The translations under genes were made by a program, and so were the position numbers. From assembly GCA_003989075.1 (NCBI GenBank), contig RXIX01000028.1, positions 1 through 33,308 on the forward strand: 33,308 nucleotides of DNA, written 5' to 3'. Positions 15,101 to 33,308 of the stretch are shown piece after piece (the stretch's first letter is position 1; every line of letters starts with the position of its first letter). The notes below the pieces were generated by a model. It ran no database searches. It was not told the origin of the DNA and saw only the letters and a program-made list of their open reading frames with translations. This DNA comes from Candidatus Competibacteraceae bacterium. Its GTDB lineage: Bacteria > Pseudomonadota > Gammaproteobacteria > Competibacterales > Competibacteraceae.

Positions 15101-15299
15101 TGGGCGTTCTCTGCGGTGTTCGAGTAGTGGGCCGGGTAACCCCTTGATCCTAGATGTTAATACCCAGGGAGCACAGCTGTTGGCGTAGGTGTGCATGTCC
15201 GCCCTCGCTGCGGAAAGCCTGATACGCTGCCTGTTCCCCCACTTGAACCACCACGGTTCAAGGGCGATGGTCCGAGACGGCACAGGCGGAGGACGCCCC
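15101..15299 (+). ncRNA. ssrS: 6S RNA
   Basis: Small RNA that binds the sigma70 RNA polymerase holoenzyme by mimicking an open promoter. The ends pair: gggcgttctctgc near 15102 with gcggaggacgccc near 15286-15298, allowing G-U pairs, closing a body of about 199 bases. The 5' arm contains ctctgcggtgttcg, as in pseudomonad 6S. The apical hairpin ttgaacc / ggttcaa (15243-15261) matches the E. coli TTGAACC...GGTTCAA hallmark. It lies between zapA and fau, its standard place. The exact ends are approximate. Confidence 0.9.
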
Positions 15300-24878: not shown

Positions 24879-25693
24879 GGCAATACTCCAGGGCTAAGCG
24901 TGAACAGTTCGGCCAGTTTCGCGCCGGGATCGGCGGCGCGCATGAATGCTTCACCCACCAGGAAGGCGGATACGCCATGCTCGCGCATCAACGCCACATC
25001 GGCCGGGCCATGAATGCCGCTCTCGGTGACCACGAGCCGATCGCCGGGCATGCGCGCCAGCAGCTTCAGCGTGGTATCGAGACGGGTTTCAAAACTGCGC
25101 AGGTTGCGATTGTTGATGCCGATCAGCGGCAGATCAAGTGCCAGCGCCCGCTCCAGTTCGTCGCCATCATGCACTTCCACCAGCACATCCAGATGCAGCT
25201 CAGTGGCCAACTGGGCCAACTCGCGCAGCCGGGCATCCTCCAGTGCGGCGACGATCAGCAGAATGGCATCAGCACCGATCAGCCGCGCTTCATGGACCTG
25301 ATAGGGATCGATGATGAAATCCTTGCGCAGTGCGGGCAGGGTGCAGGCGGCGCGCGCCTCACGCAGGTCATCCTCATGACCCTGGAAAAAGTCATGATCG
25401 GTCAATACCGATAGACAGGCCGCGCCTCCGGCAGCATAGCTTTGGGCAATCTGTGCCGGGTGGAACGGATCGCGCAGCAGACCCTTGCTGGGCGAGGCGC
25501 GTTTGATTTCGGCGATTACTGCCGCCCGGCCCTCGGCCATGACCTGTTGCAGGCGCTTGTGGAACGGTCGCGGTTGCGGCAGATCCGCCAGTCGGGCGAT
25601 CACTTCAGGCAGGTCCAGCCGCGCCCGGCGCTCGGCGACTTCCTCGGCCTTGCGGGCGAGAATCCTGTGCAGAATGTCGGGTGTGCCGCTCAT
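24875..25693 (-). CDS. trpC: Indole-3-glycerol phosphate synthase
   Basis: Closes the indole ring in tryptophan biosynthesis. The 272 residues form a monofunctional TIM barrel with the catalytic lysine in [14 protein letters not shown], plus [27 protein letters not shown] and [12 protein letters not shown]. It is not fused to TrpF. It overlaps the trpD stop by 4 bp and the downstream OsmC-like start by 4 bp, so trpD-trpC-osmC is a tightly coupled unit. Confidence 0.97.
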
Positions 25694-26724
25694 GCCGCCA
25701 ATTCCCGGGTGCAGTGCACGAATTCATCCAGCTTGGCCCGTGCCGCGCCGCTGGCCAGAGTTGCGCGCGCCAGAGCGATGCCTTCGCCAATATCGGCGGC
25801 CAGATTGGCGGCGTACAGGGCGGCGCCGGCGTTGAAGATAACGATATCGCGCGGCGTGCCCGGTTCATTGTCCAGGGCATTGAGCAGCATGGCCCGGGAT
25901 TGCTCGGCACTGTCGACGCGCAGGCCGCGATTGGACACCATCGCCAGACCGAAATCCTCGGGGTGAATTTCATATTCGCGGATCATGCCATCCTTAAGCT
26001 CGCCGACCAGGGTGGTTGCCCCGAGCGAGATTTCATCCATGCCATCCTTGCCCCAGACCACCAGCACATGCTGCGCGCCGAGCTGCTGCATCACCCGCAC
26101 CTGGATGCCAACCAGATCAGGGTGGAAGACGCCCATCAATTGATTGGGTGCGCTGGCCGGGTTGGTCAGCGGGCCGAGGATATTGAAAATGGTGCGCACC
26201 CCCATTTCGCGGCGTACCGGAGCGACGTTTTTCATCGCCGTGTGGTGGTTGGGTGCGAACATGAAGCCAATGCCGGTGGTTTCGATGCAGGCAGCGACCT
26301 GGGCCGCGTTCAGATCGATGCGCGCGCCAAGTGCTTCCAGTACGTCGGCGCTGCCGGATTTGGAGGAGACGCCGCGATTACCGTGCTTGGCGACCCGCGC
26401 ACCGGCGGCGGCGACTACGAACATGCTGGCGGTGGAAATATTGAACGTATGGGCGCCATCGCCGCCGGTGCCGACGATATCGACGAAATGCTCGTGTGGT
26501 GGCGCGACGTGGACCTTGGTGGACAGTTCGCGCATGACCGTGGCGGCGGCGCTGATTTCGCCAATGGTTTCCTTCTTGACCCGCAGACCGGCCAGGATTG
26601 CTGCCGTCATCACCGGGGAAATCTCGCCGGCCATGATCTGGCGCATCAGCGAGAGCATCTCATCGTAGAAGATCTCGCGGTGTTCGATGGTGCGTTGCAG
26701 GGCTTCCTGGGCGGTGATGAGCAT
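25690..26724 (-). CDS. trpD: Anthranilate phosphoribosyltransferase
   Basis: Joins anthranilate to PRPP. The start at 26724 gives 344 residues beginning [20 protein letters not shown], with a GGAG ribosome site 7 bases upstream. PRPP-binding [35 protein letters not shown] and [20 protein letters not shown] are present. A longer open frame to 27009 overlaps trpG and is spurious. It is 31 bp downstream of trpG and overlaps trpC. Confidence 0.97.
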
Positions 26725-26755
26725 CGAAGTCTCCGGGGCGCCGGGCGATCGGGCC

Positions 26756-27337
26756 TCAGCGTGGATTGAGAAAATTGTGCAGCAGGGCGTGGCCGTGCTC
26801 GGTGAGAATTGATTCGGGGTGGAACTGCACGCCTTCGACCGGCCATTCGCGGTGGCGCACGCCCATGATTTCGTCGCAGTCGCCGTCCGCAGTCTGGGTC
26901 CAGGCGGTGATCTCCAGGCAATCGGGCAGGCTGTCGCGCTCAATGACCAGGGAATGATAGCGCACCACGGTGAAGGGATTGGGCAGGCCGGCGAACACGC
27001 CCTGATCACGATGGTAAACCAACGAGGTCTTGCCGTGCATCACCTCGCGGGCGCGGATGATGCGGCCACCGAAGGCCTGGCCGATGCTCTGGTGGCCGAG
27101 GCAGACGCCAAGGATGGGAATTTTGCCGGCGAAGTGCTCGATGGTGGCAAGCGATACGCCGGCTTCGCTGGGCGTGCAGGGGCCGGGTGACAGGACGATG
27201 CGCGCCGGCTGTAATGCGGCTATGTCGTCCGGGGTGATCTGGTCATTGCGATATACCTGCACCTCTTCGCCCAGTTCGCCAAAATACTGGACCAGGTTGT
27301 AGGTGAAGGAGTCGTAGTTGTCGATCATCAGCAGCAT
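26756..27337 (-). CDS. trpG: Anthranilate synthase glutaminase component (TrpG/PabA)
   Basis: Class I glutamine amidotransferase supplying ammonia to TrpE and possibly PabB. The 193 residues have the catalytic triad Cys79 (GVCLGHQ) and His173/Glu175 (VQFHPES), plus [12 protein letters not shown]. An AAAGGA ribosome site lies upstream. It starts the trpGDC cluster. In relatives trpE lies directly upstream; here the type I restriction locus occupies that side, so trpE lies elsewhere. Confidence 0.95.
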
Positions 27338-27568
27338 AGCGCAGCTATCCTTTGTTCGGTATGGCCATGGTTCCAGATAATCGGCTTTGATATCCGCTAC
27401 TTATTTTGATGCCCCTGCACCGATGGTCGGGAACCGAATGCACGAAAGTTATTATTGTCCCCCATATCGGTCATGTGGACTACCGCGCCTGTCCTGCAGG
27501 GTGCAAGGGAGTTGCTTCGCTCGGCTGGCGCGTTGCTGTCAGGGTCATGAGTTGTTGCAACAAAGCTG
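27338..27568. other. Non-coding gap between trpG and hsdR
   Basis: This 231-bp stretch separates the core trp genes from the restriction locus. I see no RNA gene, no clear terminator and no protein I recognise. A minus-strand frame stays open from the hsdR 3' end to about 27397, but it overlaps hsdR and has no family signature. The segment must hold the trpG promoter and the hsdR 3' end, and may be the scar of the island's insertion. Confidence 0.4.
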
Positions 27569-30064
27569 TCAGCAAAGCGCCGCCGGTTCAGCATATAGAT
27601 ACCGCTGAAAGCCACTGAACACCTTGCCGATTGCATCCGGCCGACCCAGATCAGCCACCGCATCCGGGATGGAATCGTGGTATTTCAGCTTCAGGAGGGG
27701 TGTCAGCTTGGCTTGATCCAGTTCTTCCACCCCGAGCGCCACATAGTGCGACAGCACGAAGTCGAGAAACACCCGCTGCTTCGGATTGAAGTTTGCGCTG
27801 ATGATCGCCATCGCCCGATCCGCCCGTTCCTTACGGGTCAGCGGTTCCAGTGCATAGGCCACATGGGCCAGCACATCGAACAGGTCGCTTTTCTCGGCAT
27901 CAATGATCTTCTGCATTTCGGCCAGTTGGTCCTTGCCGAATCCCTTTGCGGCCAGACCTTCCAGCAACTTGCGGCGGGTATCGGGCGTGCTCCACAGCGC
28001 CCGCAGTTCGTTTTCGTCCTTGAAGAAATCAGGCAGCCTGCCGAACAGCGCTTCCATGAACTGCTGCGCCGACATCGGGGTGCCGTCCGGGTGCCAGAAG
28101 CTGGTAACCACCATGTGCTGGATTGAGCGCGACTTGCCATCGGCCAGCTTCACCTTGACCTTCTTCTTGCACACGCAGGGGCGCTGCAGGCACTTCGGGC
28201 AGGCTTCCTTGGGGCAGGTGCAGGGCGATATGCCGCAGCGGTAACAAGCCGTTGGCAGCTCCTTGATACAGATACAGGGCAGCGCATGGCATTTGCTGCA
28301 AGTCTCCGGCTCGATCGGCTCACCATCCCATTCCGGGTCGCTGAAATGATGGTGCGCCTTGACGAAGTCGTAGATCGTGAAGTAATCCTTGCCGTCGTAA
28401 AGCCGCGTGCCGCGCCCGATGATCTGCTTGAACTCGATCATCGAATTCACCGGCCGCAGCAGGACGATGTTGCGCACGTTGCGCGCATCGACGCCGGTGG
28501 ACAGCTTCTGCGACGTGGTGAGGATGGTCGGGATGTGTTTCTCGTTGTCCTGAAAATCCCGCAGCCATTGCTCGCCCAAAGCGCCATCGTTGGCGGTCAC
28601 CCGATGGCAGTAGTTGGGATCGGTGCTGGTCTTGGCCTGGTTGATCAGGTCGCGGATTGCCAGGGCATGATCCTGTGTGGCGCAGAACGCCAGCGTCTTT
28701 GCCCGCTGATCGATCTGCGCCATGAAAATCTCGACGCGCTTCTTCTCGCGCTCCTTGATCTCGATGATCCTGTTGAAGTCCGCTTCTTCGTAGCGCTTGC
28801 GGGCCTCGATCTCGCCTTCAACCACCGTGTCGTCGGGCGTATAGATGTATTCGTCGAGCGTGGTTGATATCTGCTTGACGCGGAACGGTGTCAGAAAGCC
28901 ATCGTTGATGCCGTCCTTGAGCGAGTAGATGAACACCGGCTCGCCGAAGTAGGCATAGGTATCAACATTGTCCTTGCGCTTTGGGGTAGCGGTCAGGCCA
29001 AGCTGTACGGCTGGGGCAAAGTAATCGAGGATGCCGCGCCAGTTGCTCTCGTCGTTGGCTCCGCCCCGGTGACACTCGTCAATGACGATGAAGTCGAAGA
29101 AATCGGGCGGATACTCGCCAAAGTAGAGGCTGCGTTCGGGTTGTGGTTCGACAAGCTCACCACGAACGTCGGCCATATTCCGTTCGCCCTGAGCCTCCTG
29201 AGCTTGTATCGAAGGGCGAAGGGCCGGCCCGCTCATGAAGGTCTGGAAGATGGTGAAGAAGAGGCTGCCGTTCTTCGGCACCTTGCCCTTTTTGCGGATA
29301 TCCGCCGGGTCAATGCGCACCAGCGCCTTATCGTCGAAAGCGGAAAAGGCGTTGTAGGCTTGATCGGCCAGAATGTTGCGGTCGGCCAGGAACAGGATGC
29401 GCGGTCGACGGGTCGGTTCGTTTCCGTTCGCACTGAGCCTGTCGCAGTGCCAGTCAGTCAGATTCCACCGGCTCTGAAACAGCTTCCACGCGATCTGGAA
29501 GGCGATGAAGGTCTTGCCGGTGCCAGTCGCCAGCGTTAGCAGAATGCGTTCCTGCCCGGCCGCTATGGCTGCCAACACCCGCTCGATGGCAATATCCTGA
29601 TAGTAGCGCCCCTGAAAGAAGCCGCCCTTATCCTCAAATGGCACGGATGCAAAGCGATCCCGCCAGGCGTTTTGGGTGGTGAAGGTGCGCTGCCACAGTT
29701 CATCGGGTGAAGGGAAAGCGGCAATCTCGCCTTCTTCCGCCGTCTGCATGTCAATACCGTAGATGCCCTGCCCGTTGCTGGCGTAAGTGAAGCGCAGCGC
29801 CAGTTTGCCGGCGTAGTCCTTGGCCTGCGCTACGCCTTCGGTTAGCGCCTTGTCCCACGCCTTGGCCTCGACCACTGCCAGCTTGGTGTTGCGGTATTCC
29901 AGAACGTAATCCGCCGTTAGCGGCTTGCCGCGTTTGTCCGCGCCTTCCAGTCGGCCCAGCGTGATCGGGTACTCGCGCCGAATGCGACTGCCTTCGACGA
30001 CACCCCAACCAGCCGCAGCAAGTGCAGGGTCAATGTGTTCAGCACGGGTTTCGGCTTCGTTCAT
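27569..30064 (-). CDS. hsdR: Type I restriction enzyme R subunit (EcoEI-like)
   Basis: Motor and nuclease subunit of a type I restriction-modification system. The 831 residues contain an N-terminal PD-(D/E)XK nuclease (Asp52, Glu66-x-Lys68 in ADYVLEYRNTKLAVVEAKAW). SF2 motifs follow: Walker A ATGTGKT (179-185), DECH (329-332), GLTATP (about 356-361) and motif VI QIIGRGTRL (about 547-555). An EcoEI_R-type C-terminal region includes IQHMVVTSFWHPDG. Two oddities stand out: peptides from palindromic repeats at about 205-217 and 282-310, and a three-fold Cys motif at 589-632. It starts 8 bp after the small nuclease-like gene. Confidence 0.95.
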   Translation of the reverse strand: MNEAETRAEHIDPALAAAGWGVVEGSRIRREYPITLGRLEGADKRGKPLTADYVLEYRNTKLAVVEAKAWDKALTEGVAQAKDYAGKLALRFTYASNGQGIYGIDMQTAEEGEIAAFPSPDELWQRTFTTQNAWRDRFASVPFEDKGGFFQGRYYQDIAIERVLAAIAAGQERILLTLATGTGKTFIAFQIAWKLFQSRWNLTDWHCDRLSANGNEPTRRPRILFLADRNILADQAYNAFSAFDDKALVRIDPADIRKKGKVPKNGSLFFTIFQTFMSGPALRPSIQAQEAQGERNMADVRGELVEPQPERSLYFGEYPPDFFDFIVIDECHRGGANDESNWRGILDYFAPAVQLGLTATPKRKDNVDTYAYFGEPVFIYSLKDGINDGFLTPFRVKQISTTLDEYIYTPDDTVVEGEIEARKRYEEADFNRIIEIKEREKKRVEIFMAQIDQRAKTLAFCATQDHALAIRDLINQAKTSTDPNYCHRVTANDGALGEQWLRDFQDNEKHIPTILTTSQKLSTGVDARNVRNIVLLRPVNSMIEFKQIIGRGTRLYDGKDYFTIYDFVKAHHHFSDPEWDGEPIEPETCSKCHALPCICIKELPTACYRCGISPCTCPKEACPKCLQRPCVCKKKVKVKLADGKSRSIQHMVVTSFWHPDGTPMSAQQFMEALFGRLPDFFKDENELRALWSTPDTRRKLLEGLAAKGFGKDQLAEMQKIIDAEKSDLFDVLAHVAYALEPLTRKERADRAMAIISANFNPKQRVFLDFVLSHYVALGVEELDQAKLTPLLKLKYHDSIPDAVADLGRPDAIGKVFSGFQRYLYAEPAALC
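28169..28300 (-). other. Triple CxxC-x4-CxC cysteine segment in HsdR
   Basis: Three units are spaced through residues 589-632: CSKCHALPCIC, CYRCGISPCTC and CPKCLQRPCVC. Each has the pattern C-x2-C-x4-C-x-C with Pro before the third Cys, so twelve cysteines could bind two or three metal ions. It links the helicase to the C-terminal domain. Confidence 0.85.
29143..29167. repeat. Degenerate REP-like palindrome inside hsdR, copy 1
   Basis: gtggttcgacaagctcacca with flanking gaac carries the TTCGACAAGCTCA core of the right-edge array in reverse orientation. On the coding strand it reads as part of the peptide VRGELVEPQ, a translation typical of this repeat type. Confidence 0.75.
29180..29220. repeat. 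Degenerate REP-like palindrome inside hsdR, copy 2
   Basis: ccgttcgccctgagc is followed by a short duplicated cctgagc-like insertion, then cttgtatcgaagggcgaa. The ends ttcgccct / agggcgaa are perfectly complementary. It is the same palindrome as the right-edge array with a few extra bases in the centre, and it translates in frame within HsdR residues 282-296. Confidence 0.75.
29424..29450. repeat. Degenerate REP-like palindrome inside hsdR, copy 3
   Basis: ccgttcgcactgagcctgtc then gcagtgc: the same CCGTTCG..CTGAGC.TGTCG core as the array, with a diverged right arm. Translated in hsdR it gives CDRLSANGNEP, a familiar reading of this repeat (compare DRLRANGNE). Confidence 0.75.
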
Positions 30065-30072
30065 ATAGGTTT

Positions 30073-30564
30073 TCAGGTGCGAATGATCAGTACGGTCGCC
30101 TGAACGTCGATTCGGAAACCGTAGTTCCGATGGAATCGAAGCATGCGTTCGTTATCAATATGCGCAAACGGTTTATGACGCTTGTTACAAGCAAACGCTT
30201 TTTTGTGGCGAAACCGCGTCAGGTCATGATGGTCGCGGAGAAAACGGATCGTCGATTCCAATTGCTCAATGGCATGCGATTGCCAGTCGTCTTTTTTATC
30301 TTTCAACTCTACCAGATACAACAGATCGTCCGTGGTCAGCATGCCATCGCAGCGCCCCCGGCTTGGCTCATCGCCGTCCTGAATCACGCACTTGTCGATG
30401 GCAGTGAATGTGACCGCCTTCCGTGCAGGGTTTTCCACGGTCGCAACCCATTTTTCCGGTGTGGTCGTATCGACATAAGCTGGGGTCGCATTCTGGTCAT
30501 CACACAGCCCGAACCGTTCCTGACTGAACGGGCCGCTCTGACATTCCGGCTTGAAGAAATCCAT
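30073..30564 (-). CDS. Small PD-(D/E)XK-like protein embedded in the hsd operon
   Basis: A 163-residue protein I cannot assign to a named family. Its central segment RCDGMLTTDDLLYLVELKDK has the shape of a PD-(D/E)XK nuclease core: Asp73, then Glu86-x-Lys88 at the end of a beta strand. A helix beginning AIEQLESTIRFL follows. Later parts (HHDLTRFRHKKAFACNKRHK) are basic and could contact nucleic acid. The ATG abuts the stop of the ATPase gene (TGA directly followed by ATG), and hsdR starts 8 bp downstream. It is probably the effector or partner of the ATPase. Nuclease activity is inferred, not shown. Confidence 0.75.
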   Translation of the reverse strand: MDFFKPECQSGPFSQERFGLCDDQNATPAYVDTTTPEKWVATVENPARKAVTFTAIDKCVIQDGDEPSRGRCDGMLTTDDLLYLVELKDKKDDWQSHAIEQLESTIRFLRDHHDLTRFRHKKAFACNKRHKPFAHIDNERMLRFHRNYGFRIDVQATVLIIRT

Positions 30565-31809
30565 TCAGATCGTCTCTTCCAGCTCCAGCAACTGGTCGAA
30601 CAGTTCATTCCCTGTGTGCAACCATTCATTCAGCACGTTCTGATCCGAGGGAATGCCCTCGAAACAAGGCAGCCGGCTAATGCTGCCATCCCGCTCGTTA
30701 CACTGGTAGATCGCAACATCGTTGGCCCGCAGCAAAGCCTCTTGAGGGACGATGGCATTCAGTCGGGGCAGCAAGTTCTCGCGCCCGTGCGAAATGATAT
30801 GTTGCTGCACGTGTTTTCCCTGAATCGCAAGGCTGAGGTAATTGACGATATAGGGGCTGTGCGTGGTCAGCACCAGACGGTTGTGCTCGCCTTGGCTATT
30901 GAAGGCCAGCAGGCTTTTGAGGATGTCCCATTGCGATGATGGAAACAGGTTTTGCTCCGGCTCCTCGACGATATTGATGAACGCCGTCTTGTTGAAACGG
31001 CGGGAAAGCACGGAGATTGCCACCCGTTTTTGCTCTTCTGTCAGGGCGTCATTAGCAAAAATACTTTCCACGCCTTTCTTGAACCGATCCAGTTCGTCGG
31101 TGCTCATCGGCTGCTGGCTGCTCTGGCTTGGTTCCTGAACCGTACTGGCTAGATGCTTGCTAACCAGATACAAGGGAACGAATGACTGAAAACCGCTGGA
31201 CGCATCCGTCAAACGCAGCTTATGACCCGGCCCCCTGATGTTGAGGATGTCGTTGAGCCTGTCGTACTCGATTTCGCTGTTATTGATTGGCAACTTCAGC
31301 GCACCCCGCAGGCTGTCTTTGGCCTGATCGAAAGCCGTGAGAAACTCCTTCAATGACTCGGAAGAAAGTTTCAATTCCCGGGGATTTCTCACGTAGGAAA
31401 TGAAATTGCGCTCCGCTGGCACATACATCACCTGAGGCAGGGCGTACTCCTCATGGGTGAGTTCCGTGATGTTCAACTGCCCATCTACATAGCGGATCGT
31501 GCAGGCATTGCCCTCATACTCGATTTCAACACTCCTCCGAGTGCTGGACTCCAGATAATTTTCCAGGCGGTGATAGCTCAGAAACTGGCTCTTCATCCGT
31601 CCCTTGCGTTCGAACCACTTTTTCTCATAGTCCCCACGAACCAGCGCCTTCTCAATCGAGGAAAAGGAGGAAAACAGTTTGGCTACCGTGCTTTTCCCTG
31701 CCCCCTGATTGCCGATAAAAACGGTGACTCGCTTGAAATCGATCCAGCCATCGTTTTCTGACAAGCCGGGGCCGATGGGGCCGAAGTTCTTGATGCGGAG
31801 TCGGATCAT
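30565..31809 (-). CDS. ABC/OLD-like AAA ATPase embedded in the hsd operon
   Basis: A 414-residue ATPase of the AAA_15/AAA_21 (OLD/RecF-like) group. Walker A is GNQGAGKST (33-41), a signature-like ASSGFQS lies at 203-209, the Walker B region is INIVEEPEQNLFP (278-290) with Glu where Asp is usual, and the H-loop is TTHSPY (315-320). No TOPRIM domain follows; the last 80 residues are helical. Such ATPases act as sensors in several phage-defence systems, paired with an effector. It lies 24 bp after hsdS and is directly joined to the small nuclease-like gene. Confidence 0.85.
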   Translation of the reverse strand: MIRLRIKNFGPIGPGLSENDGWIDFKRVTVFIGNQGAGKSTVAKLFSSFSSIEKALVRGDYEKKWFERKGRMKSQFLSYHRLENYLESSTRRSVEIEYEGNACTIRYVDGQLNITELTHEEYALPQVMYVPAERNFISYVRNPRELKLSSESLKEFLTAFDQAKDSLRGALKLPINNSEIEYDRLNDILNIRGPGHKLRLTDASSGFQSFVPLYLVSKHLASTVQEPSQSSQQPMSTDELDRFKKGVESIFANDALTEEQKRVAISVLSRRFNKTAFINIVEEPEQNLFPSSQWDILKSLLAFNSQGEHNRLVLTTHSPYIVNYLSLAIQGKHVQQHIISHGRENLLPRLNAIVPQEALLRANDVAIYQCNERDGSISRLPCFEGIPSDQNVLNEWLHTGNELFDQLLELEETI

Positions 31810-31833
31810 GGCGTGCTTCCAGTCAATATTTGG

Positions 31834-33051
31834 TTACAACTTACCGGAAAAGGCTTGGTGCAGCAGGGATTTTTTCAATTCGTCTAGCGCCGCAAACTTG
31901 CGCTGGTAGATGGATTCGAGGCGTTGGGTTTCGTCACGAACGGCACCCAGCTTCGCAACAATCTCCTCCTGCTTCGGAATTGGAGGTATCGGCACGGGAA
32001 GCTTAGAAAAGAAACCGAGGCTCAAGTTGGCCCTTGCGTTATTGACCTCATTGTCGTGAAGTACCTGCTTGAACACTGGTGAGTTGAGTAGGTAAGTCAA
32101 ATAGTGGTTGTTGAGTAGATGTGGCTCACAACGAATCAAGCAAACAGCTTGGTTGATGTTTGCCACGTCATCCGTATTGAATACTGCTGTTCGTCCAATC
32201 GACGCGCCAACAATGTTGGTCAGCACGTCACCATTTTTCAGAATCGACTTCTTGTCCTTCACGTTGAACTCTTCTTCTACGTATTTCGGTTTCTCAAGCA
32301 ATATTTCATACTCACCAACATTCTCACTTGTGACAAACAAGATGCCGGGTGATTCGACATAGGAAATACCCTGCCATTTCGGAGACGAGCCTTTTGTGAT
32401 TCGCTCGCATAATTCTGCCAGCGGTCTCTCCACCCACCCTTCACCCCGCTGCGTGAAAACGGATTGCAAATGGCTTTCAAACAAGGCGCGGGCGTTCTGA
32501 AGGTTCTTTTCGGCGTTGGCTTTGGCAGTGGCGATGCCGTCAAAGGCTTCGTCGAGGATGGCGACGATGCGGTGCTGTTCGGACTGCGACAAAGGGTACG
32601 CAACTGAAAAATTTTCAGCCAAAACTGAGCGGGCCAATTCTGTTTGCCCACCGCAGCCTTCGCCTGCTTTTTTGATCGCTTCTTCAATGAAGATAAGCAT
32701 GTACCCAAAGAAGTCGGAGAAAAATCTCCCGCGTAGTGGGCGAGCAATGGTGACGTGAGAATCGACCGTCGTCGGCTCAATCGGCGCTTCACGCAACTGC
32801 GCCACCCGCCCGAGGGTGCCAGTTCCAGTCGAGTTAATCAGCACATCACCAAGTTGAACTAACCGCTCTGCGCTTACTCGCTTTGCTGATGAGTCATGCC
32901 GTCGCGCCAGTTCAAAGTTGATTGTGTGGTCACGAATGCACTTCTGGTTCAGGACGCACATTCCTCCCTCTTCAAGATATTTTGGAGAGATACCACGATT
33001 CAGAAAACTGCAAACCTCACCCAATTTTCTGGTCTGCCAGCCGGCCTTCAT
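31834..33051 (-). CDS. hsdS: Type I restriction-modification specificity subunit
   Basis: Determines the DNA sequence recognised by the type I complex. The 405 residues show two target-recognition domains (about 1-150 and 205-350). Each is followed by a conserved helical spacer: YPLSQSEQHRIVAILDEAFD then a helix to about 200, and PIPPIPKQEEIVAKLGAVRD to the end (KKSLLHQAFSGKL). A GAGG ribosome site stands 7 bases before the ATG. Only 16 bp upstream the REP-like array begins. hsdM is expected upstream, outside the window. Confidence 0.95.
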   Translation of the reverse strand: MKAGWQTRKLGEVCSFLNRGISPKYLEEGGMCVLNQKCIRDHTINFELARRHDSSAKRVSAERLVQLGDVLINSTGTGTLGRVAQLREAPIEPTTVDSHVTIARPLRGRFFSDFFGYMLIFIEEAIKKAGEGCGGQTELARSVLAENFSVAYPLSQSEQHRIVAILDEAFDGIATAKANAEKNLQNARALFESHLQSVFTQRGEGWVERPLAELCERITKGSSPKWQGISYVESPGILFVTSENVGEYEILLEKPKYVEEEFNVKDKKSILKNGDVLTNIVGASIGRTAVFNTDDVANINQAVCLIRCEPHLLNNHYLTYLLNSPVFKQVLHDNEVNNARANLSLGFFSKLPVPIPPIPKQEEIVAKLGAVRDETQRLESIYQRKFAALDELKKSLLHQAFSGKL

Positions 33052-33067
33052 CGTGACACCTCATCTT

Positions 33068-33308
33068 CCGTTCGTCCTGAGCTTGTCGAAGGATGAACGG
33101 AGTTAGTGAGATGCCCTTCGACAGGCTCAGGGCGAACGGATATGGAGGGTTCTGGGCGAGCGGATATGGAGGTCTCAGGGCGAACGGAGTTAGTGAGATG
33201 CCCTTCGACAGGCTCAGGGCGAACGGATATGGAGGTCTCAGGGCGAACGGATATTTCCGTTCGTCCTGAGCTTGTCGAAGGATGAACGGAGTTAGTGAGA
33301 TGCCCTTC
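33068..33308. repeat. Composite array of REP-like palindromes, cut by the window edge
   Basis: Two identical 33-bp palindromes (33068-33100 and 33257-33289; core cctgagcttgtcgaagg with ends ccgttc / gaacgg) are mixed with a 26-bp relative, cccttcgacaggctcagggc plus gaacgg (33114-33139, 33201-33226, and a third from 33302). The 13-base linker agttagtgagatg occurs before each relative. Partial units atatggaggtctcaggg plus cgaacgg occur at 33163-33186 and 33227-33250. The order looks like repeated duplication of an element pair. It ends at the window edge, so its full size is unknown. Confidence 0.92.

Follow-up and report, generated by a model that had tools for sequence, protein, structure and literature searches.

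Repetitive extragenic palindromic (REP) elements rank with the most common repeats of bacteria, and some REP families have, to our knowledge, no known enzyme that spreads them. The closest described systems are the GTAG REPs, REPtrons and REPINs of the REP-associated tyrosine transposases (RAYTs), in which short, imperfect, multi-copy palindromes occur in dimers and clusters and bracket, often as inverted copies, a small gene that encodes a DNA-cutting enzyme (PMC2817692, PMC3116915). RAYTs are reported to lie always between two inverted REPs (PMC2817692). The CGTC-tagged and intragenic REPs are likewise palindromic repeats, some of them within coding regions, and are apparently without a dedicated transposase (PMC3733652). 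Here we describe a REP-like array beside hsdS, the gene for the specificity subunit of a type I restriction-modification (RM) system, in Candidatus Competibacteraceae bacterium (assembly GCA_003989075.1). The array occupies positions 33068-33308 of contig RXIX01000028.1 (C28). The window, meaning the whole stretch of DNA analysed (33,308 nucleotides), is this entire contig, and the contig end falls inside the array.

The array itself is of the REP type; what is new is a proposed GIY-YIG partner and a REP class defined by its loop. Comparison of related loci makes it fairly probable that a REP-GIY-YIG-REP cassette has inserted between hsdM and hsdS, that the array forms its 3′ end, and that the REP family is partnered by a GIY-YIG nuclease. 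The comparison further suggests that a widespread family of hairpin repeats has this enzyme as its partner in place of the usual transposase. Such a system would differ from RAYT REPtrons in that its enzyme is a GIY-YIG nuclease and not an HUH tyrosine transposase, and its 3′ REPs often lie inside the reading frame of the gene. In contrast to GTAG REPs, the array family has no GTAG head and combines a conserved loop with a variable stem. Nor do the array units appear to be CGTC-tagged hairpins of the families in PMC3733652, and a partner gene is proposed for them here. With GIY-YIG homing endonucleases and UPF0213-type proteins the subfamily in question (A2) shares the PF01541 catalytic domain, and as with them a small nuclease gene could spread by cutting and repair; unlike the homing endonucleases, the putatively mobile A2 is tied to a multi-copy hairpin family and not to introns. 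Papers on the array REP cores, or on REPs together with GIY-YIG, were not found in the part of the open-access literature searched, an absence that is no proof of novelty.

Anatomy of the array

The block at 33068-33308 is a genuine REP-like array. As the first-pass annotation of this DNA had claimed, 33-mers, 26-mers and linkers are packed into 241 bases beside hsdS; half-arms are present as well, and 16 nt lie between the first base of the array and the hsdS ATG. The block consists of the following features.

33068-33100, minus strand: full REP hairpin, hsdS-proximal, with a 10-position stem and the plus-strand loop TGAGCTTGTCGAA
33101-33114, no strand assigned: linker holding GTTAGTGAGATG, which reads CATCTCACTAAC on the hsdS strand
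33115-33140, plus strand: 26-nt REP, one arm long, in the opposite orientation to 33068-33100
33155-33188, plus strand: two degenerate half-arms, GGCGAGCGGA at 33155 and GGCGAACGGA at 33179
33189-33201, no strand assigned: linker, copy 2
33202-33227, plus strand: 26-nt REP, copy 2, 87 nt from copy 1
33242-33251, plus strand: half-arm GGCGAACGGA
33257-33289, minus strand: full REP hairpin, identical copy 2
33290-33308, no strand assigned: linker, copy 3, and the beginning of a further REP truncated by the contig end

Within this order the linkers GTTAGTGAGATG begin at 33102, 33189 and 33291, and additional half-arms of the form GGCGARCGGA begin at 33155, 33179 and 33242. The proposed duplication as a unit is evident, as 33085-33167 is 90% identical to 33172-33254 with an 87-nt period. 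The two 33-mers, called exact palindromes in the first-pass annotation, are indeed identical to each other, but each is an imperfect palindrome in which 10 complementary positions, including one G.T, flank a 13-nt loop. Fold prediction gave 10 pairs in the stem region of the 33-mers, in line with the short (20-40 bp) imperfect palindromes that REPs are, and the 26-mers folded alone did no better than shuffles. The loop of the array hairpins, GAGCYTGTCGA, is exact in four array copies. No array unit carries a GTAG (GTRG) head, the arm ending in CCGTTC; for the CGTC tag, CGTCC is present at the 33-mer arm, yet the commoner variant reads CGCCC.

The label REP-like is justified by copy number. A 17-nt core occurs exactly four times in the whole window, each time inside the array, and allowing up to three mismatches raises this to five matches (0.23 expected from shuffles). 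The genome holds 39 exact copies of the core against 0 for a reversed-pattern control. More than 100 copies are usual for REPs, and the array family is below that number. In relatives the core is mostly absent, with tens of copies in a few, and some copies in the genome are read through by reading frames, in hsdM on contig C25 and on contig C96.

A RAYT, which the first-pass annotation had named as something to look for, is present: the sole full-length one of the genome lies on contig C147 (L041:1990-2725, NF047646). It is bracketed by inverted GTAG REPs of the GTAGGGTGGATAAGCG type and not by array repeats, and thus forms a standard REPtron that is separate from the array family; no copy of the array core was found on C147. 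As the RAYT has GTAG REPs of its own, of different sequence, it was rejected as partner of the array REPs, and the GIY-YIG subfamily was therefore tested in this role.

The array as the probable coding tail of a GIY-YIG gene

In three relatives, Propionivibrio (L066), a gammaproteobacterium (L075) and Candidatus Nitrotoga sp. BS (L100), a single-domain GIY-YIG nuclease is encoded between hsdM and hsdS, and the 3′ coding tail of its gene holds array-type REPs. At a further locus (L072), the same gene with its REP tail directly precedes an hsdS start that appears to be cut short. The array and hsdS start of C28 match L100, where the GIY tail runs into the hsdS start, at 111 of 137 nt (81%) with no gaps. 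The array is thus probably the translated 3′ end of such a gene, and the gapless homology across REP, leader and ATG is a stronger point in this respect than the open frame that traverses the array.

33048-33308, minus strand: frame of 86 codons that stays open across the array and whose 5′ end lies beyond the contig; proposed as the 3′ coding part of a GIY-YIG gene

The TGA of this frame (33050-33048) overlaps the hsdS ATG (33051-33049), and the same stop-start overlap is seen in L066, L075 and L100; in many HsdR relatives, it is the hsdM stop that overlaps the hsdS start, as ATGA. An mRNA leader, one of the two settings first suggested for the array, is unlikely: the open frame, the TGA/ATG overlap and the GIY tails of the three relatives indicate that the array is probably translated as the tail of an upstream gene. 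At L075, a 14-nt sequence, GGCGATGCTATGAA, flanks the insert on both sides, as a target duplication would leave.

Cassettes of this kind are found at junctions of same-direction genes, where the neighbouring open reading frames were judged by reading, some without a check against the family library. Sites in RM genes are the hsdM|hsdS junction, the hsdM C-terminus (L184), and positions before hsdS (L180) and before hsdM (L183); others are a ureE|ureF-like junction (L147) and a mutase|GTPase pair (L182). One annotated plasmid cassette (L259) lies between nrdR and an RNA methyltransferase gene, with a 4-nt overlap. This siting could reflect a site preference or the survival of harmless insertions.

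Association of the GIY-YIG subfamily with the REPs

In a class-wide sample of 369 genomes, the REP was present in 6 of the 8 genomes with the subfamily and in 21 of the 361 others (Fisher P = 2e-6). A second set, of 34 genomes, has seven subfamily carriers, and every one also carries the REP; four of the seven had been included because the REP had already been seen at their loci. At 8 of 13 subfamily loci, picked by protein similarity alone, an exact REP lies within 350 nt, against 0.094 expected (P ~3e-15, assuming an even spread of copies and independent loci). The only two REP copies in the Nitrotoga BS genome are both in the GIY tail, and three of the four in Nitrotoga CP45 flank the GIY gene. 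A frequent layout has one REP 35-70 nt ahead of the start and at least one in the coding tail, often inverted relative to the first.

Members of A2 match PF01541, with R26 and E64 of the active site invariant and Y6 and Y16 nearly so; the GIY domain matches UPF0213 structures, the nearest solved relatives being 1zg2 and 1ywl. About 60 GIY-YIG genes of other subfamilies lacked such repeats, and other hairpins were scarce on their flanks, which speaks against a general link between GIY genes and REPs or CGTC-REPs; this set is only a partial control because most of the genomes concerned are without the array REP. Plasmids, phages and viral contigs yielded few further relatives, four of them useful, and an order-level sample around one genome (G164) comprised only 11 genomes and was uninformative.

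The enzyme-REP link holds, as far as sequence comparison can tell, when the sequences diverge. A homologue on a Sphingomonas parapaucimobilis plasmid, 53% identical, is flanked by hairpins with the loop GAGCGAAGTCGA. Six such hairpins occur in the 50 kb around it, and all but one are found within ~0.9 kb of the gene. Methylobacterium bullatum has only two CTCATCCTGAG...CTCGAAGGAGG elements among the 50-kb matches, and these flank the gene, inverted. The hairpins of both genera are divergent in sequence and have the same design as the array REPs. Across all DNA fetched, the stem covaries and the loop is constant, with stems of CCCT/AGGG in 65 contexts, TCCT/AGGA in 18, GGCT/AGCC in 11 and TGGT/ACCA in 11. 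At least four stem pairs form in 143 of 221 distinct contexts, against ~41 when right arms are dealt randomly, a contrast that is indicative only because contexts share descent.

A broader proposal, which we hold tentatively and with less than even confidence, is that a large REP class of Alpha-, Beta- and Gammaproteobacteria (loop GAG(C)...(G)TCGA, variable stem) is mobilised by a dedicated GIY-YIG endonuclease. If true, this would be a second, unrelated enzymatic route by which REPs spread, in addition to the HUH-type RAYT, and one with cassettes at operon stop/start junctions. A GIY-YIG nuclease and its own REP family, with sequences that change together, would be a concrete enzyme-substrate pair, and would explain both repeat-encoded protein tails (RPEPVEG, STSSGRTE, LRQAQDER) and the siting of arrays at operon junctions.

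Proposed mechanism and alternative explanations

In its cassette form, the locus would consist of hsdM followed by a small GIY-YIG gene whose REP-built coding tail overlaps the hsdS start; in the C28 genome, this tail would have been lengthened via tandem duplication of the 87-nt block, within which the assembly breaks. The REP family (loop GAGC-N2/3-GTCGA, variable stem) would belong to the GIY-YIG subfamily as GTAG REPs belong to RAYTs. The nuclease would recognise the folded REP hairpin or its loop and nick or cut at the REP, and repair would then copy REPs, at times the whole cassette, to new sites. This mechanism is proposed by analogy with RAYTs and their two inverted flanking REPs. The bracketing, the constancy of the loop and the siting at operon junctions are seen in the sequences; cutting, copying and the existence of the gene in the C28 genome are inferred.

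Several observations weigh against a GIY-YIG cassette. The GIY core of the subfamily was not found in the assembly of the C28 genome; it may lie in the gap between C25 and C28, or only the tail may remain after its loss. Taken alone, the open frame counts for little, because two frames are open through the array on the hsdS strand. The 14-nt duplication was not seen in L066 and L100 and is known from one junction only. Four REP-rich genomes, G034 (99 copies), G143 (39), G284 (46) and G391 (24), gave no subfamily match; the REPs of G143 and G284 are on large contigs, and the G034 assembly is fragmented. Loss of the enzyme after the spread of its REPs could explain such genomes. In G169 and G130 the gene is present and REPs occur in the genome, none of them beside the gene, and in G324 and G338 the gene is present and the exact REP absent.

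These REP-rich genomes without the gene would also suit the idea that the GIY-YIG gene is mere cargo, the REPs being spread by another enzyme (e.g. a RAYT in trans) and accumulating at GIY genes as both tolerate or prefer operon junctions. A RAYT does exist in the C28 genome, and a Coxiella GTAG REP has a similar loop, GAGCTTGCGA (PMC2817692). We nevertheless regard this account as rather doubtful: the flanks of the RAYT are GTAG REPs of other sequence, genomes with few copies hold their REPs at the GIY gene, and the hairpin sequence changes together with the GIY gene across classes. Less probable still, and in our view unlikely, is a plain intergenic cluster of REPs or bacterial interspersed mosaic elements that expanded between hsdM and hsdS with no GIY gene, acting only via RNA hairpins that protect the hsdM mRNA end and reduce hsdS translation. 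The missing GIY core is in keeping with it, as are the 39 genome copies, many of them distant from any GIY gene. The array RNA is also predicted to fold strongly (z = -8.2), with the sequence before hsdS paired: the CAUCUCAC linker is predicted to pair with GAGGUG ahead of the hsdS ATG, and it is possible that such hairpins affect hsdS translation and lower HsdS relative to HsdM. The linker accompanies REPs elsewhere in the genome, and its pairing with GAGGUG is therefore probably incidental. A plain cluster is contradicted by the gapless homology to the Nitrotoga BS tail and hsdS start, by the retained stop-start overlap and by the presence of the gene at this junction in three relatives.

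The RM operon and the contig end

The genes next to the array lie on one strand of C28 in the order hsdS, AAA ATPase gene, small gene, hsdR, trpG, trpD.

33057-33062, minus strand: GAGGTG, likely Shine-Dalgarno sequence of hsdS, inferred from sequence
31834-33051, minus strand: hsdS, type I specificity subunit
30565-31809, minus strand: AAA ATPase gene within the RM operon
30073-30564, minus strand: small gene without a Pfam match, lying between the ATPase gene and hsdR
27569-30064, minus strand: hsdR, EcoAI/FtnUII family
26756-27337, minus strand: trpG-like glutamine amidotransferase gene, which with trpE on C25 anchors C25 beside C28
33232-33308, no strand assigned: assembly break-point 77-mer, identical to C96:1-77 and to the last 77 bases of C117

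On C25, trpE is followed directly by hsdM, which leaves the contig end ~61 codons short. HsdR relatives have the order hsdM-hsdS-(other genes)-hsdR, and their HsdM is ~80% identical to the C25 protein. From trpE-hsdM on C25, hsdR-trpG-trpD on C28 and the order in relatives, it follows that C25 and C28 are very probably neighbours, with the array between hsdM and hsdS. The first-pass annotation had named this position as one of two and proposed a search to the right; trp synteny supports the position and locates hsdM on C25; the array runs up to the end of C28. Sequence overlap at contig ends did not help to place hsdM, as the end of C25 matched nothing else. C117, whose end reads into the array, was rejected as the hsdM side: its last open reading frame is unlike HsdM. 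For the suggested swapping of specificity genes by recombination at the array, no evidence was found.

C28 appears to stop at a point where the graph of a k = 77 assembly would split, as such an assembly does on reaching a repeat. The last 77 bases are common to C28, C96 and C117, and the outermost 77 bases could therefore belong elsewhere too. That the assembler created the array block or its duplication, the finding that was to overturn the first-pass annotation, is very unlikely even though the contig terminates within a repeat at a 77-mer found in two other contigs: the hsdS-proximal 137 nt match another species gaplessly, repeats shorter than k = 77 are resolvable in such an assembly, and the ambiguity is limited to the outermost 77 nt.

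Additional observations

The type I RM operon (hsdM to hsdR; 25690-33308 and L057:57-2649) appears to be inserted between trpE and trpG-trpD. Its hsdM on C25 (L057:1366-2649) has an in-frame REP fragment in the N-terminal part (peptide PSTGSGQAG) that is absent from relatives such as L066. The Propionivibrio hsdM (L066:2880) has REPs within its coding region, which add ~117 nt in frame, and the HsdM C-terminus at four loci from several genera (L076, L093, L094 and L102) has the REP-like ALSEVEG or ALSAAEG where others read SIDPATF.

The only GIY-YIG genes found elsewhere in the C28 genome were two that were set aside as candidates, one on C4 in a uvrC-sized frame of 740 codons and the other, on C6, a different, frame-broken gene. 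The only Rfam matches in the window were a 6S RNA gene at 15105-15296 (RF00013, 81 bits) and one tRNA.

REP arrangement also varies. On contig C139 (L036:566-702), five REPs follow one another head-to-tail at intervals of exactly 30 nt, in contrast to other sites with their inverted pairs. In the repeat-rich G391 (L277, L278, L279), where no GIY gene was detected, REPs are closely paired in inverted orientation, 4 nt apart. At a GIY-YIG gene of another lineage (L154), a hairpin, TTATAAGTTCATTGAGCTGGTCGAAATGAACTTATAA, lies 30 nt downstream of the GIY domain, alike in loop and different in stem.
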